64,000 bases of DNA. It comes from Luzula sylvatica. Lineage: Eukaryota; Streptophyta; Magnoliopsida; Poales; Juncaceae. The notes beneath the pieces were generated by a model. That model ran no database searches, was not told the DNA's origin, and saw only the letters and a list, made by a program, of their open reading frames with translations. The stretch is taken from contig OX326958.1 in NCBI GenBank assembly GCA_946800325.1, forward strand, positions 62,055,793 through 62,119,792, written 5' to 3'. Shown in pieces: positions 31,188 to 64,000 of this stretch. How positions within the stretch are numbered: the stretch's first letter is position 1; each line of letters starts with the position of its first letter. Made by a program: the position numbers and the translations under genes.

Positions 31188-31229
<42 letters not shown>

Positions 31230-31260: not shown

Positions 31261-31308
31261 TTCCTTCGCTTGTCCTCAAGCGATAATAAAGAGAAAAATT
31301 AAAAGAAG

Positions 31309-34441: not shown

Positions 34442-34449
34442 TATTTATA
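34442..34449 (-). promoter_or_regulatory. candidate TATA box of the 5' LTR
   Basis: TATAAATA on the minus strand lies about 411 bp into the LTR, upstream of a GGGCC-rich and then CT-rich stretch. It is the best promoter candidate in the LTR in the direction of the ORFs. Confidence 0.5.
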
Positions 34450-37400: not shown

Positions 37401-40090
37401 CGCTTTGAGGAGTTCAAATAACTTGTTTTTAGATAATTTGTATCGTATCTTTTACTACATAACTTTTCACCAAATTTTACAAACACTAAGAAACTTTGTT
37501 TTTCGATTCAAAACAAGATTTTAACGCTTTGAGGAGTTCAAATGACGTGTTTTTAGATCATTTGTATCGTATCTTTTACTACATAACTTTTCATCAAATT
37601 TTACAAACACTAAGAAAGTTTGTTTTTCGATTCAAAACAAGATTTTAACGCTTTGAGGAGTTCAAATAACGTGTTTTTAGATCAATTGTATCGTATATTT
37701 TACTACATAACTTTTCATCAAATTTCACAAACACTAAGAAAGTTTGTTTTTCGATTCAAAACAAGATTTTAACGCTTTGAGGAGTTCAAATAACGTGTTT
37801 TTAGATCATTTGTATCATATCTTTTAGTACATAACTTTTCACCAAATTTCACAAACACTAAGAAAGTTTGTTTTTCGATTCAAAACAAGATTTTAACGCT
37901 TTGAGGAGTTCAAATAACGTGTTTTTAGATCATTTGTATCGTATTTTTTACTACATAACTTTTCACCAAATTTCACAAACACTAAGAAAGTTTGTTTTTC
38001 GATTCAAAACATGATTTTGACGTTTTGAGGAGTTCGAATAACATGTGTTTTAGATCATTTGTATCGTATCTTTTACTACATAACTTTTCACCAAATTTCA
38101 CAAACACTAAAGAAATTTTGTTTTTCGATTCAAAACAAGATTTTAACGTTTTGAGGAGTTCAAATAACGTGTTTTTAGATCATTTGTATCGTATCTTTTA
38201 CTACATAACTTTTCACCAAATTTCACAAACACAAAGAAAGTTTGTTTTTCGATTCAAAACTTGATTTTAACGCTTTGAGGAGTTCAAATAACGTGTTTTT
38301 AGATCATTTGTATCGTATCTTTTACTACATAACTTTTCACCAAATTTCACAAACACTAAGGAAGTGTGTTTTTCGATTCAAAACAAGATTTTAACGCTTT
38401 GAGGAGTTCAAATAACTTGTTTTTAGATCATTTTTATCGTATCTTTTACTACATAACTTTTCACCAAATTTCACAAACACTAAGAAAGTTTGTTTTTCAA
38501 TTCAAAACAAGATTTTAACGCTTTCAGGAGTTCAAATAACGTGTTTTTAGATCAATTGTATCGTATCTTTTACTACATAACTTTTCACCAAATTTCACAA
38601 ACACTAAGAAAGTTCGTTTTTCGATTCAAAACAAGATTCTAACGCTTCGAGGAATTCAAATAACGTGTTTTAGATCATTTTATCGTATCTTTTACTACAT
38701 CAGTTTTCACCAAATTTCACAAACCCTAAGAAACTTTGTTTTCCGATTCAAAACAAGATTTTAACGCTTTGAGGAGTTCAAATGACGTGTTTTTAGATCA
38801 TTTGTATCGTATCTTTTACTACATAACTTTTCATCAAATTTTACAAACACTAGAAAAGTATGTTTTTCGATTCAAAACATGATTTTAACGCTTTGAGGAG
38901 TTCAAATAACGTGTTTTTAGATCATTTGTATCGTATCTTTTACTACATAACTTTTCACCAAATTTCACAAACACTAAGAAAGTTTGTTTTTCGATTCAAA
39001 ACATGATTTTAACGCTTTGAGGAGTTCGAATAACATGTGTTTTAGATCATTTGTATCGTATCTTTTACAACATAACTTTTCACCAAATTTCACAAACACT
39101 AAGAAAGTTTGTTTTTCGATTCAAAACAAGATTTTAACGCTTTGAGGAGTTCAAATCACGTGTTTTTAGATCATTTGTATCGTATCTTTTACTACATAAC
39201 TTTTCACCATATTTCACAAACACTAAGTAAGTGTGTTCTTCGATTCAAAACAAGATTTTAACGCTTTGAGGAGTTCAAATAACTTGTTTTTAGATCATTT
39301 TTATCGTATCTTTTACTACATAACTTTTCACCAAATTTCACAAACACTAAGAAAGTTTGTTTTTCAATTCAAAACAAGATTTTAACGCTTTCAGGAGTTC
39401 AAATAACGTGTTTTTAGATCAATTGTATCGTATCTTTTACTACATAACTTTTCACCAAATTTCACAAACAATAAGAAAGTTTGTTTTTCGATTCAAAACA
39501 AGATTTTAACGCTTCGAGGATTTCAAATAACGTGTTGTAGATCATTTTTATCGTATCTTTTACTACATAACTTTTCACCAAATTTCACAAACACTAAGAA
39601 ACTTTGTTTTTCGATTCAAAACAAGATTTTAACGCTTTGAGGAGTTCAAATGACGTGTTTTTAGATCATTTGTATCGTATCTTTTACTACATAACTTTTC
39701 ATCAAATTTTACAAACACAAGAAAAGTTTGTTTTTCGATTCAAAACATGATTTTAACGCTTTGAGGAGTACAAATAACGTGTTTTTAGATCATTTGTATC
39801 GTATCTTTTACTGCATAACTTTTCACCAAATTTCACAAACACTAAGAATGTTTGTTTTTCGATTCAAAACATGATTTTAACGCTTTGAGGAGCTCAAATA
39901 ACGTGTTTTTAGATCATTTGTATCTATCTTTTACTACATAATTTTTCACCAAATTTAACAAGCACTAAGAAAGTTTGTTTTTCGATTCAAAACAAGATTT
40001 TAACGCTTTGAGGAATTCGAATAACGTGTTTTTAGATCAATTGTCTCGTATCTTTTACCACATAACTTTTCACCAAATTTAACAAACACT
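37401..40090 (+). repeat. homogenised 124-bp satellite, plus orientation
   Basis: Only one monomer type remains, with GATTCAAAACAAGATTTTAA and TAACGTGTTTTTAGATCA. Neighbours are much more alike than in the older section. A 125-bp subtype has TAACATGTGTTTTAGATC. Confidence 0.95.
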
Positions 40091-41220
40091 TGTAGTAAAA
40101 GATACGATGCAAATGATCTAAAAACAAATTATTTGAACTCCTCAAAGCGTTAAAATCTTATTTTTAATCGAAAAACAAACTTACTTAGTGTTTGTGAAAT
40201 TTGGTGAAAAGTTATGTAGTAAAAGATACGATACAAATGATCTAAAAACAAGTTATTTGAACTCCTCAAAGCGTTAAAATCTTGTTTTGAATCGAGAAAC
40301 AAACTTTCTTAGTGTTTGTGAAATTTGGTGAAAAGTTAAGTAGTAAAAGATACGATACAAATGATCTAAAAACAAGTTATTTGAACTCCTCAAAGCGTTA
40401 AAATCTTGTTTCGAATCGAAAAACATACTTTCTTAGTGTTTGTGAAATTTGGTGAAAAGTCATGTTGTAAATTGAACTCCTCAAAGCGTTAAAATCTTGT
40501 TTTGAATCGAAAAACACACTTACTTAGTGTTTGTGAAATTTGGTGAAAAGTTATGTAGTAAAAGATATGATACAAATGATCTAAAAACACTTTATTTGAA
40601 CTCCCCAAAGCGTTAAAATCATGTTTTGAATCGAAAAACAAACTTTCTTTGTGTTTGTGAAATTTGGTGAAAACTTATGTAGTAAAAGATACGATACAAA
40701 TGATCTAAAAACACGTTATTTGAACTCCTCAAAGCGTTAAAATCATGTTTTGAATAGAAAAACAAACTTTCTTAGTGTTTGTGAAATTTGGGGAAAAATT
40801 ATGTAGTATAAGATACGAAACAATTGATCTAAAAACACGTTATTTGAACTCCTGAAAGCGTTAAAATCTTGTTTTGAATCGAAAAACAAACTTTCTTAGT
40901 GTTTGTGAAATTTGGTGAAAAGTTATGTAGTAAAAGACACGATACAAATGATCTAAAAACACGTTATTTGAACTCCTCAAAGCGTTAAAATCTTGTTTGG
41001 AATCGAAAAACAAACTTTCTTAGTGTTTGTGAAATTTGGTGAAAAGTTAGGTAGTAAAAGATACGATACAAATGATCTAAAAACACGTTATTTGAACTCC
41101 TCAAAGCGTTAAAATCATGTTTTGAATCGAAAAACAAATATTCTTAGTGTTTGTGAAATTTGGTGAAAATGTATGTAGTAAAAGATACGATACAAATGAT
41201 CTAAAAACATGTTATTTGAA
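40091..41220 (-). repeat. 124-bp satellite, inverted block 1
   Basis: At ACAAACACT/TGTAGTAAAAGATACG the array flips. The block runs as the reverse complement (GAAATTTGGTGAAAAGTTAT) for about nine monomers. One monomer near 40465 has lost about 40 bp. Confidence 0.93.
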
Positions 41221-44200
41221 CTTGTTTTTAGATCATTTGTATCGTATCTTTTAGTACATAACTTTTCACCAAATATCACAAACACTAAGAAAGTTTGTTT
41301 TTCGATTCAAAACAAGATTTTAACGCTTTGAGGAGTTCAAATGACATGTTTTTAGATCATTTGTATCGTATCTTTTACTACATAACTTTTCACCAAATTT
41401 CACAAACACTAAGAAAGTTTGTTTTTCGATTCAAAACATGATTTTAACGCTTTGAGGAGTTCAAATAACGTGTTTTTAGATCATTTGTACCGTATCTTTT
41501 ACTATATAACTTTTCACCAAATTTCACAAACACTAAGAAAGTTTGTTTTTCGATTCAAAACAAGATTTTAACGCTTTGAGGATTTCAAATAACGTGTTTT
41601 TAGATCATTTGTATCGTATCTTTTACTACATAACTTTTCACCAAATTTCACAAACACTAAGAAAGTTTGTTTTTCGATTCAAAACATGATTTTATCGCTT
41701 TGAGGAGTTCGAATAACATGTGTTTTAGATCATTTGTATCGTATCTTTTACTACATAACTTTTCACCAAATTTCACAAACACTAAGAAATTTTGTTTTTC
41801 GATTCAAAACAAAATTTTAACGCTTTGAGGATTTCAAATAACGTGTTTTTAGATCATTTGTATCGTATCTTTTACTACATAACTTTTCACCAAATTTCAC
41901 AAACACTAAGAAAGTTTGTTTTTCGATTCAAAACATGATTTTATCGCTATGAGGAGTTCGAATAACCTGTGTTTTAGATCATTTGTATCGTATCTTTTAC
42001 AACATAACTTTTCACCAAATTTCACAAACACTAAGAAACTTTGTTTTTCGATTCAAAACATGATTTTAACGCTTTGAGGAGTTCAAATAACGTGTTTTTA
42101 GATCAATTGTATCGTATATTTTACTACATAACTTTTCACCAAATTTCACAAACACTAAGAAATTTTGTTTTTCGATTCAAAACATGATTTTAACGCTTTG
42201 AGGAGTTCAAATAACGTGTTTTTAGATCATTTGTATCGTTTCTTTTACTACATAACTTTTCACCAAATTTCACAAACACTAAGAAAGTTTGTTTTTCGAT
42301 TCAAAACATGATTTTAACGCTTTGAGGAGCTCAAATAACGTGTTTTTAGAGAATTTGTATCGTATCTTTTACTACATAACTTTTCACCCAATTTCACAAA
42401 CACTAAGAAAGTTTGTTTTCCGATTCAAAATATGATTTTAACGCTTTGAGGAGTTCAAATAACGGGTTTTTAGATCATTTGTATCGTATCTTTTACTATA
42501 TAACTTTTCACCAAATTTCACAAACACTAAGAAAGTTTGTTTTCCAATTCAAAACAAGATTTTAACGCTTTGAGGAGTTCGAATAACGTGTTTTTAGATC
42601 ATTTGTATCGTATCTTTTACTATATAACTTTTCACCAAATTTCACAAACACTAAGAAAGTTTGTTTTTCGATTCAAAACAAGATTTTAACGCTTTGAGGA
42701 GTTCAAATAACGTGTTTTTAGATCATTTGTATCGTATCTTTTATTACATAACTTTTCACCAAATTTCACAAACACTAAGAAAGTTTGTTTTTCGATTCAA
42801 AACATGATTTTAACGCTTTGAGGAGTTCGAATAACATGTGTTTTAGATCATTTGTATCGTATCTTTTACTACATAACTTTTCACCAAATTTCACAAACAC
42901 TAAGAAACTTTGTTTTTCGATTCAAAACATGATTTTAACGCTTTGAGGAGTTCAAATAACTTGTTTTTAGATCATTTGTATCGTATCTTTTACTATATAA
43001 CTTTTCACCAAATTTCACAAACACTAAGAAAGTTTGTTTTTCTATTCAAAACAAGATTTTAACGCTTTGAGGAGTTCAAATAACGTGTTTTTAGATCAAT
43101 TGTATCGTATCTTTTACTACATAACTTTTCACCAAATTTGACAAACACTAAGAAAGTTTGTTTTTCAATTCAAAACATGATTTGAACGCTTTGAGGGGTT
43201 CAAATAACGTGTTTTTAGATCATTTGTATCGTATCTTTTACTATATAACTTTTCAGCAAATTTCACAAACACTAAGAAAGTTTGTTTTTCGATTCAAAAC
43301 AAGATTTTAACGATTTGAGGAGTTCAAATAACGTGCTTTTAGATCATTTGTATCGTATCTTTTACTACATAACTTTTCACCAAATTTTACAAACACTAAG
43401 AATGTTTGTTTTTCGATTCAAAACATAATTTTAACGCTTTGAGGAGTTCAAATAACGTGTTTTTAGATCATTTGTATCGTATTTTTTACTATATAACTTT
43501 TCACCAAATTTCACAAACACTAAAAAAGTTTGTTTTTCGATTCAAAACAAGATTTTAACGCTTTGAGGAGTTCAAATAACGTGTTCTTAGATCAATTGTA
43601 TCGTATCTTTTACTACATAACTTTTCACCAAATTTCTCAAACACTAAGAAAATTTGTTTTCCGATTCAAAATATGATTTTAACGCTTTGAGGAGTTCAAA
43701 TAACGTGTTTTTAGATCATTTGTATCGTATCTTTTACAACATAACTTTTCACCAAATTTCACAAACACTAAGAAAGTTTGTTTTTCGATTCAAAACATGA
43801 TTTTAACGCTTTGAGGAGTTCGAATAACATGTGTTTTAGATCATTTGTATCGTATCTTTTACTACATAACTTTTCACCAAATTTCACAAACACTAAGAAA
43901 GTTTGTTTTTCGATTCAAAACAAGATTTTAACGCTTTCATGAGTTCAAATAACGTGTTTTTAGATCATTTGTATCGTATCTTTTACTACATAACTTTTCA
44001 CCAAATTTCACAAACACTAAGAAAGTTTGTTTTTCGATTCAAAACATGATTTTAACGCTTTGAGGAGTTCGAATAACATGTGTCTTAGTTCATTTGTATC
44101 GTATCTTTTACTACATAACTTTTCACCAAATTTCACAAACACTATGAAACTTTGTTTTTCGATTCAAAACAAGATTTTATCGCTTTGAGGAGTTCAAATG

Positions 44201-46995
44201 ACATGTTTTTAGATCATTTGTATCGTATCTTTTACTACATAAATTTTCATCAAATTTCACAAACACTAAGAAAGTTTGTTTTTCGATTCAAAACAAGATT
44301 TTAACGCTTTGAGGAGTTCATATAACGTGTTTTTAGATCATTTGTATCGTATCTTTTACTACATAACTTTTCACCAAATTTCACAAACACAAAGAAAGTT
44401 TGTTTTTCGATTCAAAACTTGATTTTAACGCTTTGAGGAGGTCAAATAACTTGTTTTTAGATCATTTGTATCGTATCTTTTACTACATAACTTTTCACCA
44501 AATTTTACAAACACTAAGAAACTTTGTTTTTCGATTCAAAACAAGATTTTATCGCTTTGAGGAGTTCAAATGACATGTTTTTAGATCATTTGTATCGTAT
44601 CTTTTACTACATAACTTTTCATCAAATTTCACAAACACTAAGAAAGTTTGTTTTTCGATTCAAAACAAGATTTTAACGCTTTGAGGAGTTCATATAACGT
44701 GTTTTTAGATCATTTGTATCGTATCTTTTACTACATAACTTTTCACCAAATTTCACAAACACAAAGAAAGTTTGTTTTTCGATTCAAAACTTGATTTTAA
44801 CGCTTTGAGGAGGTCAAATAACTTGTTTTTAGATCATTTGTATCGTATCTTTTACTACATAACTTTTCACCAAATTTCACAAACACCAAGAAACTTTGTT
44901 TTCCGATTCAAAACAACATTTTAACGCTTTGAGGAGCTCAAATAACGTGTTTTTAGATCATTTGTATCGTATCTTTTACTACATAACTTTTCATCAAATT
45001 TTACAAACACTAGAAAAGTTTGTTTTTCGATTCAAAACATGATTTTAACGCTTTGAGGAGTTCAAATAACGTGTTTTTAGATCATTTGTATCGTTTCTTT
45101 TACTACATAACTTTTCACCAAATTTCACAAACACTAAGAAAGTTTGTTTTTCGATTCAAAACATGATTTTAACGCTTTGAGGAGCTCAAATAACGTGTTT
45201 TTTGATCATTTGTATCTATTTTTTACTACATAAATTTTCACCCAATTTCACAAACACTAAGAAAGTTTGTTTTTCGTTTCAAAACAAGATTTTAACGCTT
45301 TGAGGAGTTCAAATGACATGTTTTTAGATCATTTGTATCGTATCTTTTACTACATAACTTTTCATCAAATTTTACAAACACTAAGAAAGTTTGTTTTTCG
45401 ATTCAAAACAAGATTTTAACGCTTTGAGGAGACCCAATAACGTATTTTTAGATCATTTGTATCGTATCTTTTACTACATAACTTTTCACCAAATTTCACA
45501 AACACTAAGAAAGTTTGTTTTTCGATTCAAAACATGATTTTAACGCTTTGAGGAGTTCGAATAACATGTGTTTTAGATCATTTGTATCGTATCTTTTACT
45601 ACATAACTTTTCACCAAATTTCACAAACACTAAGAAATTTTGTTTTTCGATTCAAAACAAGATTTTAACGCTTTCAGGAGTTCAAATAACGTGTTTTTAG
45701 ATCATTTGTATCGTATCTTTTACTACATAACTTTTCACCAAATTTCACAAACACTAAGAAAGTTTGTTTTTCGATTCAAAACATGATTTTAACGCTTTGA
45801 GGAGTTCGAATAACATGTGTTTTAGTTCATTTGTATCGTATCTTTTACTACATAACTTTTCACCAAATTTCACAAACACTAAGAAACTTTGTTTTTCGAT
45901 TCAAAACAAGATTTTATCGCTTTGAGGAGTTCAAATGACATGTTTTTAGATCATTTGTATCGTATCTTTTACTACATAACTTTTCATCAAATTTCACAAA
46001 CACTAAGAAAGTTTGTTTTTCGATTCAAAACAAGATTTTAACGCTTTGAGGAGTTCATATAACGTGTTTTTAGATCATTTGTATCGTATCTTTTACTACA
46101 TAACTTTTCACCAAATTTCACAAACACAAAGAAAGTTTGTTTTTCGATTCAAAACTTGATTTTAACGCTTCGAGGAGGTCAAATAACTTGTTTTTAGATC
46201 ATTTGTATCGTATCTTTTACTGCATAATTTTTCACCAAATTTTACAAACACTAAGAAACTTTGTTTTTCGATTCAAAACAAGATTTTATCGCTTTGAGGA
46301 GTTCAAATGACATGTTTTTAGATCATTTGTATCGTATCTTTTACTACATAACTTTTCATCAAATTTCACAAACACTAAGAAAGTTTGTTTTTCAATTCAA
46401 AACAAGATTTTAACGCTTTGAGGAGTTCATATAACGTGTTTTTAGATCATTTGTATCGTATCTTTTACTACATAACTTTTCACCAAATTTCACAAACACA
46501 AAGAAAGTTTGTTTTTCGATTCAAAACTTGATTTTAATGCTTTGAGGAGGTCAAATAACTTGTTTTTAGATCATTTGTATCGTATCTTTTACTACATAAC
46601 TTTTCACCAAATTTCACAAACACCAAGAAACTTTGTTTTCCGATTCAAAACAACATTTTAACGCTTTGAGGAGCTCAAATAACGTGTTTTTAGATCATTT
46701 GTATCGTATCTTTTACTACATAACTTTTCATCAAATTTTACAAACACTAGAAAAGTTTGTTTTTCGATTCAAAACATGATTTTAACGCTTTGAGGAGTTC
46801 AAATAACGTGTTTTTAGATCATTTGTATCGTTTCTTTTACTACATAACTTTTCACCAAATTTCACAAACACTAAGAAAGTTTGTTTTTCGATTCAAAACA
46901 TGATTTTAACGCTTTGAGGAGCTCAAATAACGTGTTTTTTGATCATTTGTATCTATTTTTTACTACATAAATTTTCACCCAATTTCACAAACACT
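41221..46995 (+). repeat. 124-bp satellite, plus-orientation block
   Basis: The array returns to plus orientation at TTTGAACTTGTTTTTAGATC. It contains a tandem duplication of about 1.74 kb: rare variants such as the TTTAGTTCATTTG (TTAGTTCAT) form at about 44087 and 45823, and ACCAAGAAACTTTGTTTTCC at 44885 and 46622, recur at the same distance. Confidence 0.93.
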
Positions 46996-49302
46996 TGTAG
47001 TAAAAGATACGATGCAAATGATCTAAAAACAAGTTATTTGAACTCCTCAAAGCGTTAAAATCTTGTTTTGAATCGAAAAACAAACTTACTTAGTGTTTGT
47101 GAAATTTGGTGAAAAGTTATGTAGTAAAAGATACGATACAAATGATCTAAAAACAAGTTATTTGAACTCCTCAAAGCGTTAAAATCTTGTTTTGAATCGA
47201 AAAACAAACTTTCTTAGTGTTTGTGAAATTTGGTGAAAAGTTATGTAGTAAAAGATACGATACAAATGATCTATAAAAACAAGTTATTTGAACTCCTCAA
47301 AGCGTTAAAATCTTGTTTTGAATCGAAAAACACACTTACTTAGTGTTTGTGAAATTTGGTGAAAAGTTATGTAGTAAAAGATACGATACAAATGATCTAA
47401 AAACACGTTATTTGAACTCCTCAAAGCGTTAAAATCATGTTTTGAATCGAAAAAAAAACTTTCTTTGTGTTTGTGAAATTTGGTGAAAATTTATGTACTA
47501 AAAGATACGATACAAATGATCTAAAAACACGTTATTTGAACTGCTCAAATCGTTAAAATCTTGTTTTAAAATCGAATAACAAACTTTCTTAGTGTTTGTG
47601 AAATTTGGTGAAAAGTTATGTAGTAAAAGATACGATACAAATGATCTAAAAACACGTTATTTGAACTCCTCAAAGCGTTAAAATCTTGTTTTGTATCCAA
47701 AAACAAACTTACTTTACTTAGTGTTTGTAAAATTTGGTGAAAACTTAGGCAGTAAAAGATACGATACAAATGATCTAAAAATACGTTATTTAAACTCCTG
47801 AAAGCGTTAAAATCTTGTTTTGAATCGAAAAACAAACTTACTTAGTGTTTGTAAAATTTGGTGAAAACTTAGGCAGTAAAAGATACGATGCAAATGATCT
47901 AAAAACACGTTATTTGAACTCCTCAAAGCGTTAAAATCTTGTTTTGAATCGAAAAACAAACTTACTTAGTGTTTGTAAAATTTGGTGAAAACATATGTAG
48001 TAAAAGACACGATGCAAATGATCTAAAAAAAGTTATTTGAACTCCTCAAAGCGTTAAAATTTTGTTTTGAATCGAAAAACAAACTATCTTAGTGTTTGTG
48101 AAATTTGGGGAAAAGTTATGTAGTAAAAGAAACGATACAAATGATCTAAAAACACGTTATTTGAACTCCTCAAAGCGTTAAAATCTTGTTGTGAATCGAA
48201 AAACAAAATTTCTTAGTGTTTGTGAAATTTGGTGAAAAGTTATGTAGTAAAAGATACGATACAAATGATCTAAAACACATATTATTCGAACTCCTCAAAG
48301 CGTTAAAATCATGTTTTGAATCGAAAAACAAAATTTCTTAGTGTTTGCGAAATTTGGTGAAAAGTTATGTAGTAAAAGATACGGTACAAATGATCTAAAA
48401 ACACGTTATTTGAACTCCTCAAAGCGTTAAAATCATGTTTTGAATCGAAAAACAAACTTTCTTAGTGTTTGTAAAATTTGGTGAAAAGTTATGTAGTAAA
48501 AGATACGATACAAATGATCTAAAAACACGTTATTTGAACTCCTCAAAGCATTAAAATCTTGTTTTGAATCGAAAAAAAAACTTTCTTAGTGTTTGTGAAA
48601 TTTGGTGAAAAGTTATGTAGTAAAAGATACGATACAAATGATCTAAAACACATGTTATTCGAACTCCTCAAAGCGTTAAAATCATGTTTTGAATCGAAAA
48701 ACAAACTTTCTTAGTCTTTGTGAAATTTGGTGAAAAGTTATGTAGTAGAAGATACGATACAAATGATCTACAAACACGTCATTTGAACTCCTCAAAGCGT
48801 TAAAATCTTGTTTTGAATCGAAAAACAGACTTTCTTAGTGTTTGTGAAATTTGGTGAAAAGTTATGTAGTAAAACATACGATACAAATGATCTAAAAACA
48901 AGTTATTTGAACTCCTCAAAGCGTTAAAATCTTGTTTTGACTCGAAAAACAAACTTTCTTAGTGTTTGTGAAATTTGGTGAAAAGTTATATAGTAAAAGA
49001 TACGATACAAATGATCTAAAAACACGTTATTTGAACTCCTCAAAGCGTTAAAATCTTGTTTTGAATCGAAAAACAAACTTTCTTAGTGTTTGTGAAATTT
49101 GGTGAAAAGTTATGTAGTAAAAGATACGAAACAAATGATCTAAAAACACGTTATTTGAACTCCTCAAAGCGTTAAAATCATGTTTTGAATCGAAAATAAA
49201 ATATTCTTAGTGTTTGTGAAATTTGGTGAAAAGGTATGTAGTAAAAGATACGATACAAATGATCTAAAAACATGTTATTTGAACTCCTCAAAGCGTTAAA
49301 AT
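46996..49302 (-). repeat. 124-bp satellite, inverted block 2
   Basis: It begins with the same ACAAACACT/TGTAGTAAAAG junction as block 1. It ends at about 49302 inside GCGTTAAAATCATTTGTATC, where the two orientations overlap by ATCAT. Confidence 0.93.
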
Positions 49303-51962
49303 CATTTGTATCGTATCTTTTAGTACATAATTTTTCACCAAATTTCACAAACACTAAGAAAGTTTGTTTTTCGATTCAAAACAAGATTTTAACGTTTTGA
49401 GGAGTTCAAATGACATGTTTTTAGATCATTTGTATCGTATCTTTTACTACATAACTTTTCACCAAATTTCACAAACACTAAGAAAGTTTGTTTTTCGTTT
49501 GAAAACAAGATTTTAACGCTTTGAGGAGTTTAAATGACATGTTTTTAGATCATTTGTATCGTATCTTTTACTACATAACTTTTCATCAAATTTTACAAAC
49601 ACTAAGAAAGTTTGTTTTTCGATTCAAAACAAGATTTTAACGCTTTGAGGAGACCCAATAACGTATTTTTAGATCATTTGTATCGTATCTTTTACTACAT
49701 AACTTTTCACCAAATTTCACAAACACTAAGAAAGTTTGTTTTTCGATTCAAAACATGATTTTAACGCTTTGAGGAGTTCGAATAACATGTGTTTTAGATC
49801 ATTTGTATCGTATCTTTTACTAAATAACTTTTCACCAAATTTCACAAACACTAAGAAATTTTGTTTTTCGATTCAAAACAAGATTTTAACGCTTTCAGGA
49901 GTTCAAATAACGTGTTTTTAGATCATTTGTATCGTATCTTTTACTACATAACTTTTCACCAAATTTCACAAACACTAAGAAAGTTTGTTTTTCGATTCAA
50001 AACATGATTTTAACGCTTTGAGGAGTTCGAATAACATGTGTTTTAATTCATTTGTATCGTATCTTTTACTACATAACTTTTCACCAAATTTCACAAACAC
50101 TAAGAAACTTTGTTTTTCGATTCAAAACAAGATTTTATCGCTTTGAGGAGTTCAAATGACATGTTTTTAGATCATTTGTATCGTATCTTTTACTACATAA
50201 CTTTTCATCAAATTTCACAAACACTAAGAAAGTTTGTTTTTCGATTCAAAACAAGATTTTAACGCTTTGAGGAGTTCATATAACGTGTTTTTAGATCATT
50301 TGTATCGTATCTTTTACTACATAACTTTTCACCAAATTTCACAAACACAAAGAAAGTTTGTTTTTCGATTCAAAACAAGATTTTAACGCTTTGAGGAGAC
50401 CCAATAACGTATTTTTAGATCATTTGTATCGTATCTTTTACTACATAACTTTTCACCAAATTTCACAAACACTAAGAAAGTTTGTTTTTCGATTCAAAAC
50501 ATGATTTTAACGCTTTGAGGAGTTCGAATAACATGTGTTTTAGATCATTCGTATCGTATCTTTTACTACATAACTTTTCACCAAATTTCACAAACACTAA
50601 GAAATTTTGTTTTTCGATTCAAAACAAGATTTTAACGCTTTCAGGAGTTCAAATAACGTGTTTTTAGATCATTTGTATCGTATCTTTTACTAAATAACTT
50701 TTCACCAAATTTCACAAACACTAAGAAAGTTTGTTTTTCGATTCAAAACATGATTTTAACGCTTTGAGGAGTTCGAATAACATGTGTTTTAGTTCATTTG
50801 TATCGTATCTTTTACTACATAACTTTTCACCAAATTTCACAAACACTAAGAAACTTTGTTTTTCGATTCAAAACAAGATTTTATCGCTTTGAGGAGTTCA
50901 AATGACATGTTTTTAGATCATTTGTATCGTATCTTTTACTACATAACTTTTCATCAAATTTCACAAACACTAAGAAAGTTTGTTTTTCGATTCAAAACAA
51001 GATTTTAACGCTTTGAGGAGTTCATATAACGTGTTTTTAGATCATTTGTATCGTATCTTTTACTACATAACTTTTCACCAAATTTCACAAACACAAAGAA
51101 AGTTTGTTTTTCGATTCAAAACTTGATTTTAACGCTTTGAGGAGGTCAAATAACTTGTTTTTAGATCATTTGTATCGTATCTTATACTACATAACTTTTC
51201 ACCAAATTTTACAAACACTAAGAAACTTTGTTTTTCGATTCAAAACAAGATTTTATCGCTTTGAGGAGTTCAAATGACATGTTTTTAGATCATTTGTATC
51301 GTATCTTTTACTACATAACTTTTCATCAAATTTCACAAACACTAAGAAAGTTTGTTTTTCGATTCAAAACAAGATTTTAACGCTTTGAGGAGTTCATATA
51401 ACGTGTTTTTAGATCATTTGTATCGTATCTTTTACTACATAACTTTTCACCAAATTTCACAAACACAAAGAAAGTTTGTTTTTCGATTCAAAACTTGATT
51501 TTAATGCTTTGAGGAGGTCAAATAACTTGTTTTTAGATCATTTGTATCGTATCTTTTACTACATAACTTTTCACTAAATTTCACAAACACCAAGAAACTT
51601 TGTTTTCCGATTCAAAACAACATTTTAACGCTTTGAGGAGCTCAAATAACGTGTTTTTAGATCATTTGTATCGTATCTTTTACTACATAACTTTTCATCA
51701 AATTTTACAAACACTAGAAAAGTTTGTTTTTCGATTCAAAACATGATTTTAACGCTTTGAGGAGTTCAAATAACGTGTTTTTAGATCATTTGTATCGTTT
51801 CTTTTACTACATAACTTTTCACCAAATTTCACAAACACTAAGAAAGTTTGTTTTTCGATTCAAAACATGATTTTAACGCTTTGAGGAGCTCAAATAACGT
51901 GTTTTTTGATCATTTGTATCTATTTTTTACTACATAAATTTTCACCCAATTTCACAAACACT
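49303..51962 (+). repeat. 124-bp satellite, plus-orientation block
   Basis: It shares rare variants (GAGGAGACCCAATAACGTA at 49648 and 50393) with the block at 41221-46995 (45426), so it derives from the same segment by duplication. Confidence 0.93.
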
Positions 51963-54900
51963 TGTAGTAAAAGATACGATGCAAATGATCTAAAAACAAG
52001 TTATTTGAACTCCTCAAAGCGTTAAAATCTTGTTTTGAATCGAAAAACAAACTTACTTAGTGTTTGTGAAATTTGGTGAAAAGTTATGTAGTAAAAGATA
52101 CGATACAAATGATCTAAAAACAAGTCATTTGAACTCCTCAAAGCGATAAAATCTTGTTTTGTATCGAAAAACAAACTTTCTTAGTGTTTGTGAAATTTGG
52201 TGAAAAGTTATGTAGTAAAAGATACGATACAAATGATCTAAAAACAAGTTATTTGACCTCCTCAAAGCGTTAAAATCAAGTTTTGAATCGAAAAACAAAC
52301 TTTCTTTGTGTTTGTGAAATTTGGTGAAAAGTTATGTAGTAAAAGATACGATACAAATGATCTAAAAACACGTTATTTGAACTCCTCAAAGCGTTAAAAT
52401 CATGTTTTGAATCGAAAAACAAACTTTCTTTGTGTTTGTGAAATTTGGTGAAAATTTATGTACTAAAAGATACGATACATATGATCTAAAAACACGTTAT
52501 TTGAACTGCTCAAAGCGTTAAAATCTTGTTTTGAAATCGAATAACAAACTTTCTTAGTGTTTGTGAAATTTGGTGAAAAGTTATGTAGTAAAAGATACGA
52601 TACAAATGATCTAAAAACACGTTATTTGAACTCCTCAAAGCGTTAAAATCTTGTTTTGTATCCAAAAACAAACTTACTTAGTGTTTGTGAAATTTGGTGA
52701 AAAGTTACGTAGTAAAAGATACGATACAAATGATCTAAAAATACGTTATTTGAACTCCTGAAAGCGTTAAAATCTTGTTTTGAATCGAAAAACAAACTTA
52801 CTTAGTGTTTGTAAAATTTGGTGAAAACTTAGGCAGTAAAAGATACGATGCAAATGATCTAAAAACACGTTATTTGAACTCCTCAAAGCGTTAAAATCAT
52901 GTTTTGAATCGAAAAACAAACTTACTTAGTGTTTGTGAAATTTGGTGAAAAGTTATGTAGTAAAAGAAACGATACAAATGATCTAAAAACACGTTATTTG
53001 AACTCCTCAAAGCGTTAAAATCTTGTTTTGAATCGAAAAACAAAATTTCTTAGTGTTTGTGAAATTTGGTGAAAAGTTATGTAGTAAAAGATACGATACA
53101 AATGATCTAAAACACATATTATTCGAACTCCTCAAAGCGTTAAAATCATGTTTTGAATCGAAAAACAAAATTTCTTAGTGTTTGTGAAATTTGGTGAAAA
53201 GTTATGTAGTAAAAGATACGGTACAAATGATCTAAAAACACGTCATTTGAACTCCTCAAAGCGTTAAAATCTTGTTTTGAATCGAAAAACAAACTTTCTT
53301 AGTGTTTGTAAAATTTGGTGAAAAGTTATGTAGTAAAAGATACGATACAAATGATCTAAAAACACGTTATTTGAACTCCTCAAAGCATTAAAATCTTGTT
53401 TTGAATCGAAAAAAAAACTTTCTTAGTGTTTGTGAAATTTGGTGAAAAGTTATGTAGTAAAAGATACGATACAAATGATCTAAAACACATGTTATTCGAA
53501 CTCCTCAAAGCGTTAAAATCATGTTTTGAATCGAAAAACAAACTTTCTTAGTCTTTGTGAAATTTGGTGAAAAGTTATGTAGTAAAAGATACGATACAAA
53601 TGATCTATAAAAACAAGTTATTTGAACTCCTCAAAGCGTTAAAATCTTGTTTTGAATCGAAAAACACACTTACTTAGTGTTTGTGAAATTTGGTGAAAAG
53701 TTTTGTAGTAAAAGATACGATACAAATGATCTAAAAACACGTTATTTGAACTCCTCAAAGCGTTAAAATCATGTTTTGAATCGAAAAACAAACTTTCTTT
53801 GTGTTTGTGAAATTTGGTGAAAATTTATGTACTAAAAGATACGATACATATGATCTAAAAACACGTTATTTGAACTGCTCAAAGCGTTAAAATCTTGTTT
53901 TGAAATCGAACAACAAACTTTCTTAGTGTTTGTGAAATTTGGTGAAAAGTTATGTAGTAAAAGATACGATACAAATGATCTAAAAACACGTTATTTGAAC
54001 TCCTCAAAGCGTTAAAATCTTGTTTTGTATCCACAAACAAACTTACTTAGTGTTTGTGAAATTTGGTGAAAAGTTACGTAGTAAAAGATACGATACAAAT
54101 GATCTAAAAATACGTTATTTGAACTCCTGAAAGCGTTAAAATCTTGTTTTGAATCGAAAAACAAACTTACTTAGTGTTTGTAAAATTTGGTGAAAACTTA
54201 GGCAGTAAAAGATACGATGCAAATGATCTAAAAACACGTTATTTGAACTCCTCAAAGCGTTAAAATCATGTTTTGAATCGAAAAACAAACTTACTTAGTG
54301 TGTGTGAAATTTGGTGAAAAGTTATGTAGTAAAAGAAACGATACAAATGATCTAAAAACACGTTATTTGAACTCCTCAAAGCGTTAAAATCTTGTTTTGA
54401 ATCGAAAAACAAAATTTCTTAGTGTTTGTGAAATTTGGTGAAAAGTTATGTAGTAAAAGATACGATACAAATGATCTAAAACACATATTATTCGAACTCC
54501 TCAAAGCGTTAAAATCATGTTTTGAATCGAAAAACAAAATTTCTTAGTGTTTGTGAAATTTGGTGAAAAGTTATGTAGTAAAAGATACGGTACAAATGAT
54601 CTAAAAACACGTTATTTGAACTCCTCAAAGCGTTAAAATCTTGTTTTGAATCGAAAAGCAAACTTTCTTAGTGTTTGTAAAATTTGGTGAAAAGTTATGT
54701 AGTAAAAGATACGATACAAATGATCTAAAAACACGTTATTTGAACTCCTCAAAGCATTAAAATCTTGTTTTGAATCGAAAAAAAAAACTTTCTTAGTGTT
54801 TGTGAAATTTGGTGAAAAGTTATGTAGTAAAAGATACGATACAAATGATCTAAAACACATGTTATTCGAACTCCTCAAAGCGTTAAAATCATGTTTTGAA

Positions 54901-55486
54901 TCGAAAAACAAACTTTCTTAGTCTTTGTGAAATTTGGTGAAAAGTTATGTAGTAAAAGATACGATACAAATGATCTACAAACACGTCATTTGAACTCCTC
55001 AAAGCGTTAAAATCAAGTTTTGAATCGAAAAACAGACTTTCTTAGTGTTTGTGAAATTTGGTGAAAAGTTATGTAGTAAAAAATACGATACAAATGATCT
55101 AAAAACAAGTTATTTGAACTCCTCAAAGCGTTAAAATCTTGTTTTGAATCGAAAAACAAATTTTCTTATTGTTTGTGAAATTTGGTGAAAAGTTATATAG
55201 TAAAAGATACGATACAAATGATCTAAAAATACGTTATTTGAACTCCTCAAAGCGTTAAAATCTTGTTTTGAATCGAAAAACAAACTTTCTTAGTGTTTGT
55301 GAAATTTGGTGAAAAGTTATGTAGTAAAAGATACGAAACAAATGATCTAAAAACACGTTATTTGAACTCCTCAAAGCGTTAAAATCATGTTTTGAATCGA
55401 AAATAAAATATTCTTAGTGTTTGTGAAATTTGGTGAAAAGGTATGTAGTAAAAGATACGATACAAATGATCTAAAAACATGTTATT
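51963..55486 (-). repeat. 124-bp satellite, inverted block 3
   Basis: It starts at the recurring ACAAACACT/TGTAGTAAAAG junction and ends in the palindrome around 55486. It belongs to the first copy of the 4.21-kb unit. Confidence 0.93.
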
Positions 55487-55500
55487 TGAACATGTTTTTA
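55472..55500. repeat. 29-bp palindrome at an orientation switch
   Basis: TAAAAACATGTT, a five-base spacer ATTTG, then AACATGTTTTTA form a perfect hairpin exactly where the satellite changes from minus to plus. The same structure occurs at about 59684-59712. Confidence 0.9.
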
Positions 55501-56175
55501 GATCATTTGTATCGTATCTTTTAGTACATAACTTTTCACCAAATTTCACAAACACTAAGAAAGTTTGTTTTTCGATTCAAAACAAGATTTTAACGCTTTG
55601 AGGAGTTCAAATGACATGTTTTTAGATCATTTGTATCGTATATTTTACTACATAACTTTTCACCAAATTTCACAAACACTAAGAAAGTTTGTTTTTCGTT
55701 TCAAAACAAGATTTTAACGCTTTGAGGAGTTCAAATGACATGTTTTTAGATCATTTGTATCGTATCTTTTACTACATAACTTTTCACTAAATTTCACAAA
55801 CACCAAGAAACTTTGTTTTCCGATTCAAAACAACATTTTAACGCTTTGAGGAGCTCAAATAACGTGTTTTTAGATCATTTGTATCGTATCTTTTACTACA
55901 TAACTTTTCATCAAATTTTACAAACACTAGAAAAGTTTGTTTTTCGATTCAAAACATGATTTTAACGCTTTGAGGAGTTCAAATAACGTGTTTTTAGATC
56001 ATTTGTATCGTTTCTTTTACTACATAACTTTTCACCAAATTTCACAAACACTAAGAAAGTTTGTTTTTCGATTCAAAACATGATTTTAACGCTTTGAGGA
56101 GCTCAAATAACGTGTTTTTTGATCATTTGTATCTATTTTTTACTACATAAATTTTCACCCAATTTCACAAACACT
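55487..56175 (+). repeat. 124-bp satellite, short plus block
   Basis: About 5.5 monomers in plus orientation separate two long inverted blocks. The boundary of the 4.21-kb duplication (55784) falls inside it. Confidence 0.93.
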
Positions 56176-59100
56176 TGTAGTAAAAGATACGATGCAAATG
56201 ATCTAAAAACAAGTTATTTGAACTCCTCAAAGCGTTAAAATCTTGTTTTGAATCGAAAAACAAACTTACTTAGTGTTTGTGAAATTTGGTGAAAAGTTAT
56301 GTAGTAAAAGATACGATACAAATGATCTAAAAACAAGTCATTTGAACTCCTCAAAGCGATAAAATCTTGTTTTGTATCGAAAAACAAACTTTCTTAGTGT
56401 TTGTGAAATTTGGTGAAAAGTTATGTAGTAAAAGATACGATACAAATGATCTAAAAACAAGTTATTTGACCTCCTCAAAGCGTTAAAATCAAGTTTTGAA
56501 TCGAAAAACAAACTTTCTTTGTGTTTGTGAAATTTGGTGAAAAGTTATGTAGTAAAAGATACGATACAAATGATCTAAAAACACGTTATTTGAACTCCTC
56601 AAAGCGTTAAAATCATGTTTTGAATCGAAAAACAAACTTTCTTTGTGTTTGTGAAATTTGGTGAAAATTTATGTACTAAAAGATACGATACATATGATCT
56701 AAAAACACGTTATTTGAACTGCTCAAAGCGTTAAAATCTTGTTTTGAAATCGAATAACAAACTTTCTTAGTGTTTGTGAAATTTGGTGAAAAGTTATGTA
56801 GTAAAAGATACGATACAAATGATCTAAAAACACGTTATTTGAACTCCTCAAAGCGTTAAAATCTTGTTTTGTATCCAAAAACAAACTTACTTAGTGTTTG
56901 TGAAATTTGGTGAAAAGTTACGTAGTAAAAGATACGATACAAATGATCTAAAAATACGTTATTTGAACTTCTGAAAGCGTTAAAATCTTGTTTTGAATCG
57001 AAAAACAAACTTACTTAGTGTTTGTAAAATTTGGTGAAAACTTAGGCAGTAAAAGATACGATGCAAATGATCTAAAAACACGTTATTTGAACTCCTCAAA
57101 GCGTTAAAATCATGTTTTGAATCGAAAAACAAACTTACTTAGTGTTTGTGAAATTTGGTGAAAAGTTATGTAGTAAAAGAAACGATACAAATGATCTAAA
57201 AACACGTTATTTGAACTCCTCAAAGCGTTAAAATCTTGTTTTGAATCGAAAAACAAAATTTCTTAGTGTTTGTGAAATTTGGTGAAAAGTTATGTAGTAA
57301 AAGATACGATACAAATGATCTAAAACACATATTATTCGAACTCCTCAAAGCGTTAAAATCATGTTTTGAATCGAAAAACAAAATTTCTTAGTGTTTGTGA
57401 AATTTGGTGAAAAGTTATGTAGTAAAAGATACGGTACAAATGATCTAAAAACACGTCATTTGAACTCCTCAAAGCGTTAAAATCTTGTTTTGAATCGAAA
57501 AACAAACTTTCTTAGTGTTTGTAAAATTTGGTGAAAAGTTATGTAGTAAAAGATACGATACAAATGATCTAAAAACACGTTATTTGAACTCCTCAAAGCA
57601 TTAAAATCTTGTTTTGAATCGAAAAAAAAACTTTCTTAGTGTTTGTGAAATTTGGTGAAAAGTTATGTAGTAAAAGATACGATACAAATGATCTAAAACA
57701 CATGTTATTCGAACTCCTCAAAGCGTTAAAATCATGTTTTGAATCGAAAAACAAACTTTCTTAGTCTTTGTGAAATTTGGTGAAAAGTTATGTAGTAAAA
57801 GATACGATACAAATGATCTATAAAAACAAGTTATTTGAACTCCTCAAAGCGTTAAAATCTTGTTTTGAATCGAAAAACACACTTACTTAGTGTTTGTGAA
57901 ATTTGGTGAAAAGTTTTGTAGTAAAAGATACGATACAAATGATCTAAAAACACGTTATTTGAACTCCTCAAAGCGTTAAAATCATGTTTTGAATCGAAAA
58001 ACAAACTTTCTTTGTGTTTGTGAAATTTGGTGAAAATTTATGTACTAAAAGATACGATACATATGATCTAAAAACACGTTATTTGAACTGCTCAAAGCGT
58101 TAAAATCTTGTTTTGAAATCGAACAACAAACTTTCTTAGTGTTTGTGAAATTTGGTGAAAAGTTATGTAGTAAAAGATACGATACAAATGATCTAAAAAC
58201 ACGTTATTTGAACTCCTCAAAGCGTTAAAATCTTGTTTTGTATCCACAAACAAACTTACTTAGTGTTTGTGAAATTTGGTGAAAAGTTACGTAGTAAAAG
58301 ATACGATACAAATGATCTAAAAATACGTTATTTGAACTCCTGAAAGCGTTAAAATCTTGTTTTGAATCGAAAAACAAACTTACTTAGTGTTTGTAAAATT
58401 TGGTGAAAACTTAGGCAGTAAAAGATACGATGCAAATGATCTAAAAACACGTTATTTGAACTCCTCAAAGCGTTAAAATCATGTTTTGAATCGAAAAACA
58501 AACTTACTTAGTGTGTGTGAAATTTGGTGAAAAGTTATGTAGTAAAAGAAACGATACAAATGATCTAAAAACACGTTATTTGAACTCCTCAAAGCGTTAA
58601 AATCTTGTTTTGAATCGAAAAACAAAATTTCTTAGTGTTTGTGAAATTTGGTGAAAAGTTATGTAGTAAAAGATACGATACAAATGATCTAAAACACATA
58701 TTATTCGAACTCCTCAAAGCGTTAAAATCATGTTTTGAATCGAAAAACAAAATTTCTTAGTGTTTGTGAAATTTGGTGAAAAGTTATGTAGTAAAAGATA
58801 CGGTACAAATGATCTAAAAACACGTTATTTGAACCCCTCAAAGCGTTAAAATCTTGTTTTGAATCGAAAAGCAAACTTTCTTAGTGTTTGTAAAATTTGG
58901 TGAAAAGTTATGTAGTAAAAGATACGATACAAATGATCTAAAAACACGTTATTTGAACTCCTCAAAGCATTAAAATCTTGTTTTGAATCGAAAAAAAAAC
59001 TTTCTTAGTGTTTGTGAAATTTGGTGAAAAGTTATGTAGTAAAAGATACGATACAAATGATCTAAAACACATGTTATTCGAACTCCTCAAAGCGTTAAAA

Positions 59101-59697
59101 TCATGTTTTGAATCGAAAAACAAACTTTCTTAGTCTTTGTGAAATTTGGTGAAAAGTTATGTAGTAAAAGATACGATACAAATGATCTACAAACACGTCA
59201 TTTGAACTCCTCAAAGCGTTAAAATCAAGTTTTGAATCGAAAAACAGACTTTCTTAGTGTTTGTGAAATTTGGTGAAAAGTTATGTAGTAAAAAATACGA
59301 TACAAATGATCTAAAAACAAGTTATTTGAACTCCTCAAAGCGTTAAAATCTTGTTTTGAATCGAAAAACAAATTTTCTTATTGTTTGTGAAATTTGGTGA
59401 AAAGTTATATAGTAAAAGATACGATACAAATGATCTAAAAATACGTTATTTGAACTCCTCAAAGCGTTAAAATCTTGTTTTGAATCGAAAAACAAACTTT
59501 CTTAGTGTTTGTGAAATTTGGTGAAAAGTTATGTAGTAAAAGATACGAAACAAATGATCTAAAAACACGTTATTTGAACTCCTCAAAGCGTTAAAATCAT
59601 GTTTTGAATCGAAAATAAAATATTCTTAGTGTTTGTGAAATTTGGTGAAAAGGTATGTAGTAAAAGATACGATACAAATGATCTAAAAACATGTTAT
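56176..59697 (-). repeat. 124-bp satellite, inverted block 4
   Basis: It is the near-identical second copy of block 3, from the TGTAGTAAAAG junction to the palindrome near 59697. Confidence 0.93.
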
Positions 59698-62618
59698 TTG
59701 AACATGTTTTTAGATCATTTGTATCGTATCTTTTAGTACATAACTTTTCACCAAATTTCACAAACACTAAGAAAGTTTGTTTTTCGATTCAAAACAAGAT
59801 TTTAACGCTTTGAGGAGTTCAAATGACATGTTTTTAGATCATTTGTATCGTATATTTTACTACATAACTTTTCACCAAATTTCACAAACACTAAGAAAGT
59901 TTGTTTTTCGTTTCAAAACAAGATTTTAACGCTTTGAGGAGTTCAAATGACATGTTTTTAGATCATTTGTATCGTATCTTTTACTACATAACTTTTCATC
60001 AAATTTTACAAACACTAAGAAAGTTTGTTTTTCGATTCAAAACAAGATTTTAACGCTTTGAGGAGTTCAAATAACGTGTTTTTAAATCAATTGTATCGTA
60101 TCTTTTACTACATAACTTTTCACCAAATTTCACAAACACTAAGAAAGTTTGTTTTTCGATTCAAAACAAGATTTTAACGCTTTCAGGAGTTCAAATAACG
60201 TGTTTTTAGATCATTTGTATCGTATCTTTTACTATATAACTTTTCACCAAATTTCACAAACACTAAGAAAGTTTGTTTTTCGATTCAAAACAAGATTTTA
60301 ACGCTTTGAGGAGTTCAAATAACTTGTTTTTAGATCATTTGTATCGTATTTTTTACTACATAACTTTTCACCAAATTTCACAAACACTAAGAAAGTTTGT
60401 TTTTCGATTCAAAACAAGATTTTAACGCTTTGAGGAGTTCAAATAACGTGTTTTTAGATCATTTGTATCGTATCTTTTACTACATAACTTTTCACCAAAT
60501 TTCACAAACACAAAGAAAGTTTGTTTTTCGATTCAAAACTTGATTTTAACGCTTTGAGGAGTTCAAATAACGTGTTTTTAGATCATTTGTACCGTATCTT
60601 TTACTACATAACTTTTCACCAAATTTCACAAACACTAAGTAAGTGTGTTTTTCGATTCAAAACAAGATTTTAACGCTTTGAGCAGTTCAAATAACTTGTT
60701 TTTAGATCATTTTTATCGTATCTTTTACTACATAACTTTTCACCAAATTTCACAAAAACTAAGAAAGTTTGTTTTTCAATTCAAAACAAGATTTTAACGC
60801 TTTCAGGAGTTCAAATAACGTGTTTTTAGATCAATTGTATCGTATCTTTCACTACATAACTTTTCACCAAATTTCACAAACACTAAGAAAGTTTGTTTTT
60901 CGATTCAAAACAAGATTCTAACGCTTCGAGGATTTCAAATAACGTGTTTTAGATCATTTTTATCGTATCTTTTACTACATGACTTTTCACCAAATTTCAC
61001 AAACACAAAGAAACTTTGTTTTCCGATTCAAAACAAGATTTTAACGCTTTGAGGAATTCAAAAGACGTGTTTTTAGATCATTTGTATCGTATCTTTTACT
61101 ACATAACTTTTCACCAAATTTCACATACACAAAGAAAGTTTGTTTTTCGATTCAAAACTTGATTTTAACGCTTTGAGGAGTTCAAATAACGTGTTTTTAG
61201 ATCATTTGTACCGTATCTTTTACTACATAACTTTTCACCAAATTTCACAAACACTAAGTAAGTGTGTTTTTCGATTCAAAACATGATTTTAACGCTTTGA
61301 GGAGTTCAAATAACATGTGTTTTAGTTCATTTGTATCGTATCTTTTACTACATAACTTTTCACCAAATTTCACAAACACTAAGAAAGTTTGTTTTTCGAT
61401 TCAAAACAAGATTTTAACGCTTTGAGGAGTTCAAATAACGTGTTTTTAGATCATTTGTATCGTATCTTTTACTACATAACTTGTCACCAAATTTCACAAA
61501 CACAAAGAAAGTTTGTTTTTCGATTCAAAACTTGATTTTAACCCTTTGAGGAGTTCAAATAACGTGTTATTAGATCATTTGTATCGTATCTTTTACTACA
61601 TAACTTTTCACCAAATTTCACAAACACTAAGTAAGTGTGTTCTTCGATTCAAAACAAGATTTTAACGCTTTGAGGAGTTCAAATAACTTGTTTTTAGATC
61701 ATTTTTATCGTATCTTTTACTACATAATTTTTCACCAAATTTCACAAACATTAAGAAAGTTTGTTTTTCGATTGAAAACAAGCTTTTAACGCTTTGAGGA
61801 GTTCAAATAACGTGTTTTTAGATCAATTGTATCGTATCTTTTACTACATAACTTTTCACCGAATTTCACAAACACTAAGAAAGTTTGTTTTTCGATTCAA
61901 AACAAGATTTTAACGCTTCGAGGATTTCAAATAACGTATTTTAGATCATTTTTATCGTATCTTTTACTACATAACTTTTCACCAAATTTGACAAACACTA
62001 AGAAACTTTGTTTTCCGATTCAAAACAAGATTTTAACGCTTTGAGGAGTTCAAATGACGTGTTTTTAGATCATTTGTATCGTATCTTTTACTACATAACT
62101 TTTCATCAAATTTCACAATCACTAAGAAAGTTTGTTTTTCGATTCAAAACAGGATTTTAACGCTTCGAGGAGTTCAAATATCGTGTTTTTAGATCATTTT
62201 TATCGTATCTTTTACGACATAACTTTTCACCAAATTTCACAAACACTAAGAAACTTTGTTTTCCGATTCAAAACAATATTTTAACGCTTTGAGGAGCTCA
62301 AATAACGTGTTTTTAGATCATTTGTATCGTATCTTTTACTACATAACTTTTCATCAAATTTTACAAACACTAGAAAAGTTTGTTTTTCGATTCAAAACAT
62401 GATTTTAACGCTTTGAGGAGTTCAAATAACGTGTTCTTAGATCATTTGTATCGTTTCTTTTACTACAAAACTTTTCACCAAATTTCACAAACACTAAGAA
62501 AGTTTGTTTTTCGATTCAAAACATGATTTTAACGCTTTGAGGAGCTCAAATAACGTGTTTTTTGATCATTTGTATCTATTTTTTACTACATAAATTTTCA
62601 CCAAATTTCACAAACACT
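59698..62618 (+). repeat. 124-bp satellite, plus-orientation block
   Basis: Monomers here again resemble those at 38-40 kb, with subtypes TTTTATCGTATC and AAGTAAGTGTGTTTTTCG in the same local order. This suggests duplication of that segment. Confidence 0.93.
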
Positions 62619-64000
62619 TGTAGTAAAAGATATGATGCAAATGATCTAAAAACAAGTTATTTGAACTCCTCAAAGCGTTAAAATCTTGTTTTGAATCGAA
62701 AAACAAACTTACTTAGTGTTTGTGAAATTTGGTGAAAAGTTATGTAGTAAAAGATACGATACAAATGATCTAAAAACAAGTTAATTGAACTCCTCAAAGC
62801 GTTAAAATCTTGTTTTGAATCGAAAAACAAACTTTCTTAGTGTTTGTGAAATTTGGTGAAAAGTAATGTAGTAAAAGATACGATACAAATGATCTATAAA
62901 AACAAGTTATTTGAACTCCTCAAAGCGTTAAAATCTTGTTTTGAATCGAAAAACACACTTACTTAGTGTTTGTGAAATTTGGTGAAAAGTTATGTAGTAA
63001 AAGATACAATACAAATGATCTAAAAACACGTTATTTGAACTCCTCAAAGCGTTAAAATCATGTTTTGAATCGAAAAACAAACTTTCTTTGTGTATGTGAA
63101 ATTTGGTGAAAATTTATGTACTTAAAGATACGATACAAATGATCTAAAAACACGTTATTTGAACTGCTCAAAGCGTTAAAATCTTGTTTTGAAATCGAAT
63201 AACAAACTTTCTTAGTGTTTGTGAAATTTGGTGAAATGTTAGGTAGTAAAAGATACGATACAAATGATCTAAAAACACGTTATTTGAACTGCTCAAAGCG
63301 TTAAAATCTTGTTTTGAAATCGAATAACAAACTTTCTTAGTGTTTGTGAAATTTGGTGAAAAGTTACGTAGTAAAAGATACGATACAAATGATCTAAAAA
63401 CACGTTATTTGAACTCCTGAAAGCGTTAAAATCTTGTTTTGAATCGAAAAACAAACTTACTTAGTGTTTGTAAAATTTGGTGAAAAGTTATGTAGTAAAA
63501 GATACGATGCAAATGATCTAAAAACACGTTATTTGAACTCCTCAAAGCGTTAAAATCTTGTTTTGAATCGAAAAACAAACTTACTTAGTGTTTGTAAAAT
63601 TTGGTGAAAACATATGTAGTAAAATACACGATGCAAATGATCTAAAAACAGTTATTTGAACACCTCAAAGCATTAAAATCTTGTTTTGAATCGAAAAACA
63701 AGCTTTCTTAGTGTTTGTGAAATTTGGGGAAAAGTTATGTAGTAAAAGAAACGATACAAATTATCTAAAAACACGTTATTTGAACTCCTCAAAGCCTTAA
63801 AATCTTGGTTTGAATCGAAAAACAAACTTTCTTAGTGTTTGTGAAATTTGGTGAAAAGTTACGTAGTAAAAGATACGATACAAATGATCTAAAAACACGT
63901 TATTCGAACTCCTCAAAGCGTTAAAATCTTGTTTTGAATCGAAAAACAAACTTTCTTATTGTTTGTGAAATTTGGTGAAAAGTTATGTAGTAAAAGATAC
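62619..64000 (-). repeat. 124-bp satellite, inverted block 5 (runs off the window)
   Basis: It begins at the fifth copy of the ACAAACACT/TGTAGTAAAAG junction and continues in minus orientation to the end. The array clearly extends beyond this window. Confidence 0.93.

Follow-up and report, generated by a model that had tools for sequence, protein, structure and literature searches.

The window analysed here, a 64 000-nt stretch of Luzula sylvatica contig OX326958.1, contains coding and simple-repeat sequence in its left part and a satellite with monomers of about 124 bp from position 25951 to its end. On the minus strand, an open reading frame at 8512–9279, searched without its first residue, was closest to a protein of Juncus effusus (56% identity over 83%), the next matches being two unnamed proteins and then Rhynchospora pubera; a second open reading frame had no hit. 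A stretch encoding a KIB1-4 beta-propeller (Pfam PF03478, E 9.2e-24) was identified at 12486–13061, and degenerate CCCTAAA (telomere-type) repeats at 6224–6289 lie within a stretch of about 2 kb of AATACG-like hexamer repeats (4491–6544). The period of the satellite was 124 according to TRF, and its monomers are described below by 124 alignment columns. An abrupt switch at 37459/37460 separates an older, diverse subfamily (array A) from a younger and homogeneous one (array B), and orientation changes were confined to the younger part (Table 1). Array A was the more diverse of the two; pairwise identity in array B averaged 0.940 among 208 full monomers, monomers covering fewer than 110 of the 124 columns (18 of 226) being left out of the monomer statistics. 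Array A is interrupted by an LTR element, which occupies 28394–34865 including the target duplication TGTAC, has TG...CA ends and carries 1597-bp LTRs at 28399–29995 and 33264–34860 that are 99.69% identical. Its open reading frame at 32005–33108 (minus strand, 367 amino acids), searched without the first residue, gave no Pfam match at E 0.001. Based on the LTR identity and on the reading frame without a Pfam match, the element looks recent and is perhaps non-autonomous.

Lusy1 has been described as the CENH3-associated satellite of the holocentromeres of L. sylvatica, with a 124-bp monomer (PMC11538461). The published 36-nt Lusy1 FISH probe (PMC11538461) matched the array B consensus at 30 of 35 columns and the best single monomer at 31 of 35. 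Its best local score was 26 in array B and 24 in array A, with 30 shuffled probes scoring at most 18 on the window; the score of the Lusy2 probe on the window was no better than that of its own shuffles. The array, which resembles Lusy1 as described there in its 124-bp monomer and in probe similarity (PMC11538461), is probably a Lusy1-like satellite of the type from which woodrush centromeres are built. The published probe and the array B consensus are not identical, and array B could be a diverged subfamily.

When the window was aligned to the monomer with strand switching allowed, ten orientation segments were resolved, the complete ones 0.7–5.8 kb in size, with five minus-to-plus turns (J1–J5) and four plus-to-minus turns (T1–T4).

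Table 1. Satellite arrays, plus-oriented segments, orientation junctions and copied regions in the window
Feature	Position	Strand	Remarks
Array A, older satellite subfamily	25951–37459	-	TRF period of about 373 best in its left part; interrupted by LTR element at 28399–34860
Array B, younger ~124-bp satellite	37460–64000	.	208 full monomers in ten orientation segments; continues past the window end
Junction J1	40082–40104, turn 40090/40091	+	one extra left monomer (39939–40062) compared with J2–J5
Plus segment F1	40091–41222	+	1132 bp, about 9 monomers
Junction T1	41179–41253	.	core fusion as in T3/T4 with one base changed
Junction-free twin of J2 left flank	44860–45258	-	runs on in the same orientation into a T-right-type monomer; plus segment absent
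Junction J2	46987–47009, turn 46995/46996	+	exact fusion
Plus segment F2	46996–49300	+	18 monomer pairs in register with F3, 98.6%
Junction T2	49242–49322, turn 49300/49301	.	flanks common with T1/T3/T4; centre changed; 22-bp stem, 37-nt loop
Duplicated block with J3 and T3	51277–56175	.	offset 4213; copy at 55490–60388, 99.14%
Junction J3	51954–51976, turn 51962/51963	+	exact fusion
Plus segment F3	51963–55488	+	internal 1366-bp (11-monomer) tandem duplication, also in F4
Junction T3	55449–55523	.	perfect 35-bp stem, 5-nt loop
Junction J4	56167–56189, turn 56175/56176	+	exact fusion
Plus segment F4	56176–59700	+	near-identical to F3
Junction T4	59661–59735	.	identical to T3 over 710 bp left and 298 bp right; perfect 35-bp stem, 5-nt loop
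Junction J5	62610–62632, turn 62618/62619	+	exact fusion
Plus segment F5	62619–64000	+	cut by the window end

The initial annotation of this DNA, made from the sequence alone, had reported a single inversion fusion recurring five times with the same breakpoint, and this was confirmed exactly at all five places. The fusion ACAAACACTTGTAGTAAAAGATA is present in the window in five exact copies on the plus strand, which make up all five minus-to-plus turns of the array; there is no minus-to-plus turn elsewhere. J1–J5 all lie at the same pair of monomer columns, column 96 and column 0, and the chance of four repeats of one column pair is about 10^-17 if all 124 × 124 pairs are assumed to be equally likely. 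With up to three mismatches allowed, no further fusion site was found in the window, nor in 100 shuffles; since both halves of the fusion occur in ordinary monomers, shuffling is a weak null for the fusion count and no reliance was placed on the shuffle expectation. The sequence past the junction was likewise shared in the form reported, with CGATGC in four copies and TGATGC in the last. The first right-hand monomers of J1–J5 all carry 18G, 36A and 92A, of which G at column 18 is found in 13 of the 208 full monomers of array B.

The sameness of the breakpoint in all five J would also be expected if five independent inversions had occurred at one base, for example where cleavage or hairpin formation is favoured. 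The J junctions have a 28-nt spacer and J2 is capable of forming a hairpin, with a predicted fold of -26.9 kcal/mol (z -6.6, against -0.7 for an ordinary piece of the array). Inversions arising separately at a hotspot would, however, have unrelated flanks, whereas ordered rare variants are common to the copies on both sides. In a tree of the 208 full monomers, the monomers at position right-0 of J1–J5 formed an exact clade (5 of 5), and those at position left-1, with J1 shifted by one monomer, formed an exact clade together with a junction-free twin of the J2 left flank (6 of 6). The six monomers at the second left position fell within a clade of seven, and random sets of the same size gave a clade as tight as that of right-0 or left-1 in 0 of 300 draws each. 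The order of the first three left monomers was conserved across J2–J5, and those of J1 matched at 0.944–0.976 once its extra monomer was skipped. Three rare variants were found only at homologous places, namely a deletion at column 14 (6 of 208 monomers), A at column 28 (5 of 208) and G at column 121 (4 of 208).

In-register identity of the flanks was compared with that at random anchors within array B (78 in plus and 106 in minus orientation; 20 000 draws; null mean of about 0.94). For J2–J5, identity was 0.980 in the right flank, a value reached by 2 of the 20 000 draws, and 0.993 in the left flank, reached by none. With J1 included, it was 0.982 on the right (0 of 20 000) and, on the left, 0.980 with J1 shifted (0 of 20 000) or 0.961 with J1 unshifted (40 of 20 000). 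These values above random anchors, together with the flank clades, bear out the earlier proposal that one ancestral junction was copied with its surroundings; the favoured break site that had been offered as its alternative is rejected, since the flanking monomers are related instead of randomly grouped.

Further from the junction the relationships were less simple. Right monomers R1 and R2 formed no clades in the tree, the smallest clades containing them comprising 146 and 161 of the 208 monomers; R1 is near the consensus, and R2 is of differing type in J3/J4. The tree of flanking monomers that had been suggested as a check thus gave the predicted grouping next to the junction, as a clade of five on the right and one of six including the twin on the left, but not for R1 and R2. 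Over 500 bp, the left flanks paired J2 with J3 and the right flanks J3 with J4. Because left and right flanks group differently and R1 and R2 do not form clades, copying of J appears to have been stepwise and mosaic, not of one block, and of the block duplication put forward in the initial annotation the co-inheritance of flanks stands while a single block does not. Repeated exchange, that is, mosaic descent, fits both the discordant grouping and the R1 and R2 monomers outside clades.

The plus-to-minus partner junction, which had been overlooked in the first reading, was copied as well. All four T have common flanks, and one core fusion is present in T1, T3 and T4 (three of four). The last full plus monomers before T formed an exact clade (4 of 4 in the tree of 208 monomers) marked by 89T, 90A and 121G, and the first full minus monomers after T fell in a clade of eight. 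The second full minus monomers of T2–T4 formed a clade of four with the twin monomer at 45231, a set from which the second right monomer of T1 (41383), unlike the T2–T4 type, was excluded. T1 was at first segmented at other columns; its treatment as a separate breakpoint was rejected, its core being that of T3 apart from the one base. At T2, 19 bases of plus sequence replace 13 bases of minus sequence, and the sequence at the new end, ATCAT, would also be present in a plus monomer carrying A at column 67 (77 of 208). Near-perfect palindromes are fragile structures, and the centre of T2 may have been rewritten following breakage of an unstable palindrome. Common flanks of T junctions that alternate with J, and the absence from the window of any J with another breakpoint, weigh further against a hotspot, and we regard five independent inversions at one base as exceedingly improbable. 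Because ordered flanking variants are common to the copies, a single origin is shown for each junction class, J with its five members and T with its four.

Larger units containing the junctions were also found in copies. The 99.14% block pair with J3 and T3 spans 4.9 kb, and the blocks 44337–49305 and 49301–54269 were 96.3% alike over 5.0 kb. F2 and F3 were colinear: across their 18 monomer pairs they differed at 30 of 2121 columns. This comparison excludes two F2 monomers, 47996 and the partial one at 47711, and also the F3 monomers from 52211 through 53453, which make up the other copy of the internal duplication. Across 29 monomer pairs, F3 and F4 (3526 and 3525 bp) differed at 2 columns. 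Assembly of satellite arrays is difficult, and with so few differences between F3 and F4 it might be supposed that one real junction was duplicated by haplotype or read misjoins; false duplication could in principle yield the 99.14% block pair. It cannot, however, yield the more diverged copies, and J1, J2, J3/J4 and J5 differ mutually by substitutions and interior lengths. A fold-back read artefact would in turn leave nearly identical arms, whereas arms of about 600 bp at the nine junctions matched at only 86.7–94.6%, the mean for any two monomers being 94.0%. An assembly artefact is, on this evidence, very unlikely. A fresh or recent fold-back origin of the junctions was also rejected, the arms being no more alike than any two monomers.

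The twin shows no difference from the left flank of J2 over three monomers and a 28-bp stub, whereas J1 departs from it at 17 of the 400 positions compared, indicating that the twin probably arose by secondary loss of a plus segment. The reading of the twin as the state before inversion was rejected, since the twin falls within the group of younger junctions if J1 is taken to be the outlier. A toy simulation of neutral unequal exchange between same-orientation monomers, with no inversions added, comprised 3000 runs per setting; its settings were arbitrary and chosen once, and it addresses feasibility only. The inversion was lost in 54–83% of runs per setting. Among the runs retaining it, a fraction of 0.114 to 0.658 ended with at least five junctions, corresponding to 0.052 to 0.117 of all runs.

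Very probably, a single inverted segment was copied with both of its ends, J and T, the later copying taking place by unequal exchange or a similar process. One segment of the Lusy1-like satellite of about 124 bp would have been placed in reverse inside the array, creating J and, at the other end, T as a near-perfect palindrome. Unequal exchange or similar copying between monomers of the same orientation would have duplicated units with J and T, and exchange would also have expanded or shrunk their interiors and removed one plus segment. The same fusion would recur because exchange in the same orientation cannot shift the bases of the junction. The pattern of gain and loss is as expected from such unequal exchange, from which we infer the copying step. 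The spreading unit is the inverted segment including both ends, within a larger unit that gains and loses interior monomers, and identical flip points need not imply repeated breakage or selection.

Dyad symmetries were counted as perfect inverted repeats with a stem of at least 10 and a gap of at most 100. Array B contained 20 dyads, ten spanning J and nine spanning T, and a single dyad was left in array B when the plus segments were computationally reversed. Junctions accounted for 24 of 30 dyads at a stem length of 9 and for 26 of 110 at 8, so the concentration of dyads at junctions applies from a stem length of about 9 upwards. In the non-satellite first 25 kb of the window there were 82 dyads, a large number of which lay within a single TA run. 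With this non-satellite DNA being denser in dyads (3.28 per kb against 0.75), array B is not dyad-rich in absolute terms; its dyads sit at the turns.

Selection might keep the junctions as structural elements of the centromere, with a cruciform or hairpin at the turns, as proposed for Tribolium satellites. The T3 hairpin is very strong as a single strand (-68.1 kcal/mol, z -22), junctions hold 19 of the 20 dyads of array B, and functional, CENH3-bearing Lusy1 arrays were reported to be richer in dyad symmetries in a zero-mismatch palindrome search (PMC11538461). The sameness of the junctions is, however, already accounted for by common descent, and monomers far outside the hairpins are common to the copies too. 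The changed centre of T2 and the lost plus segment are structures that were not strictly kept, and the higher density of dyads outside the satellite also argues against selection, which we consider very unlikely as the explanation.

Under common descent of J and T, dyad counts in such arrays may largely count inherited junctions. If the dyads reported for Lusy1 (PMC11538461) are also junctions, the difference between active and inactive arrays would reflect array history. It is conceivable, if rather doubtful, that the dyad excess of CENH3 arrays consists mainly of inherited junctions that spread because palindromic turns aid their own copying or centromere chromatin; dyad symmetry would in that case belong to the array architecture, as a heritable and mobile trait, rather than to the monomer. 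The test implied for genome-wide data is to mask or phase junctions ahead of comparing dyads between active and inactive arrays. Uniform inversion sites and enriched dyads in centromeric satellites have previously been interpreted as potential indications of function. In this array, variants in the flanking monomers reveal the ancestry of the junctions, and descent alone accounts for their uniformity, which provides a concrete null model.

In titles and the beginnings of abstracts, tracing of copied Lusy1 inversion junctions was not found, which is weak evidence of absence. In the text of PMC11538461 the words 'invert' and 'inversion' occur 0 times each, and inversions within arrays are not described in that text. 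Satellite inversions as such are already known, and the present array adds a well-resolved example rather than a new kind. The TmSat1 and TmSat2 satellites of Tribolium madens were described as having macro-dyad symmetries with conserved inversion sites (PMC13081366). Array B shares with them, as described, the alternating orientation and very uniform inversion sites, and the variable monomer count between its constant ends resembles that of the 'cassettes' reported there (PMC13081366). Its alternating subarrays are of kilobase size as in macro-dyads of the Tribolium type, and its inversion sites are conserved, with all five J agreeing exactly over 23 bp and, on the T side, the core fusion common to three of four. 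In the Tribolium description, uniformity was taken to suggest function (PMC13081366), whereas here descent, followed monomer by monomer, accounts for it; the Tribolium satellite is unrelated and from another kingdom, and the present case concerns one locus only. The Chio arrays of Chionographis japonica are likewise a plant satellite of holocentromere type with mixed forward and reverse orientation, but have 23-bp monomers in place of about 124 bp, and in the description consulted the origin of single orientation changes was not traced (PMC10264360). Orientation changes within satellite arrays, centromeric in that case, were also reported for primate alpha-satellite (PMC11062924), where they are large polymorphic inversions, one of them of 3.2 Mb, in contrast to the copied kilobase-scale junction pair found here.
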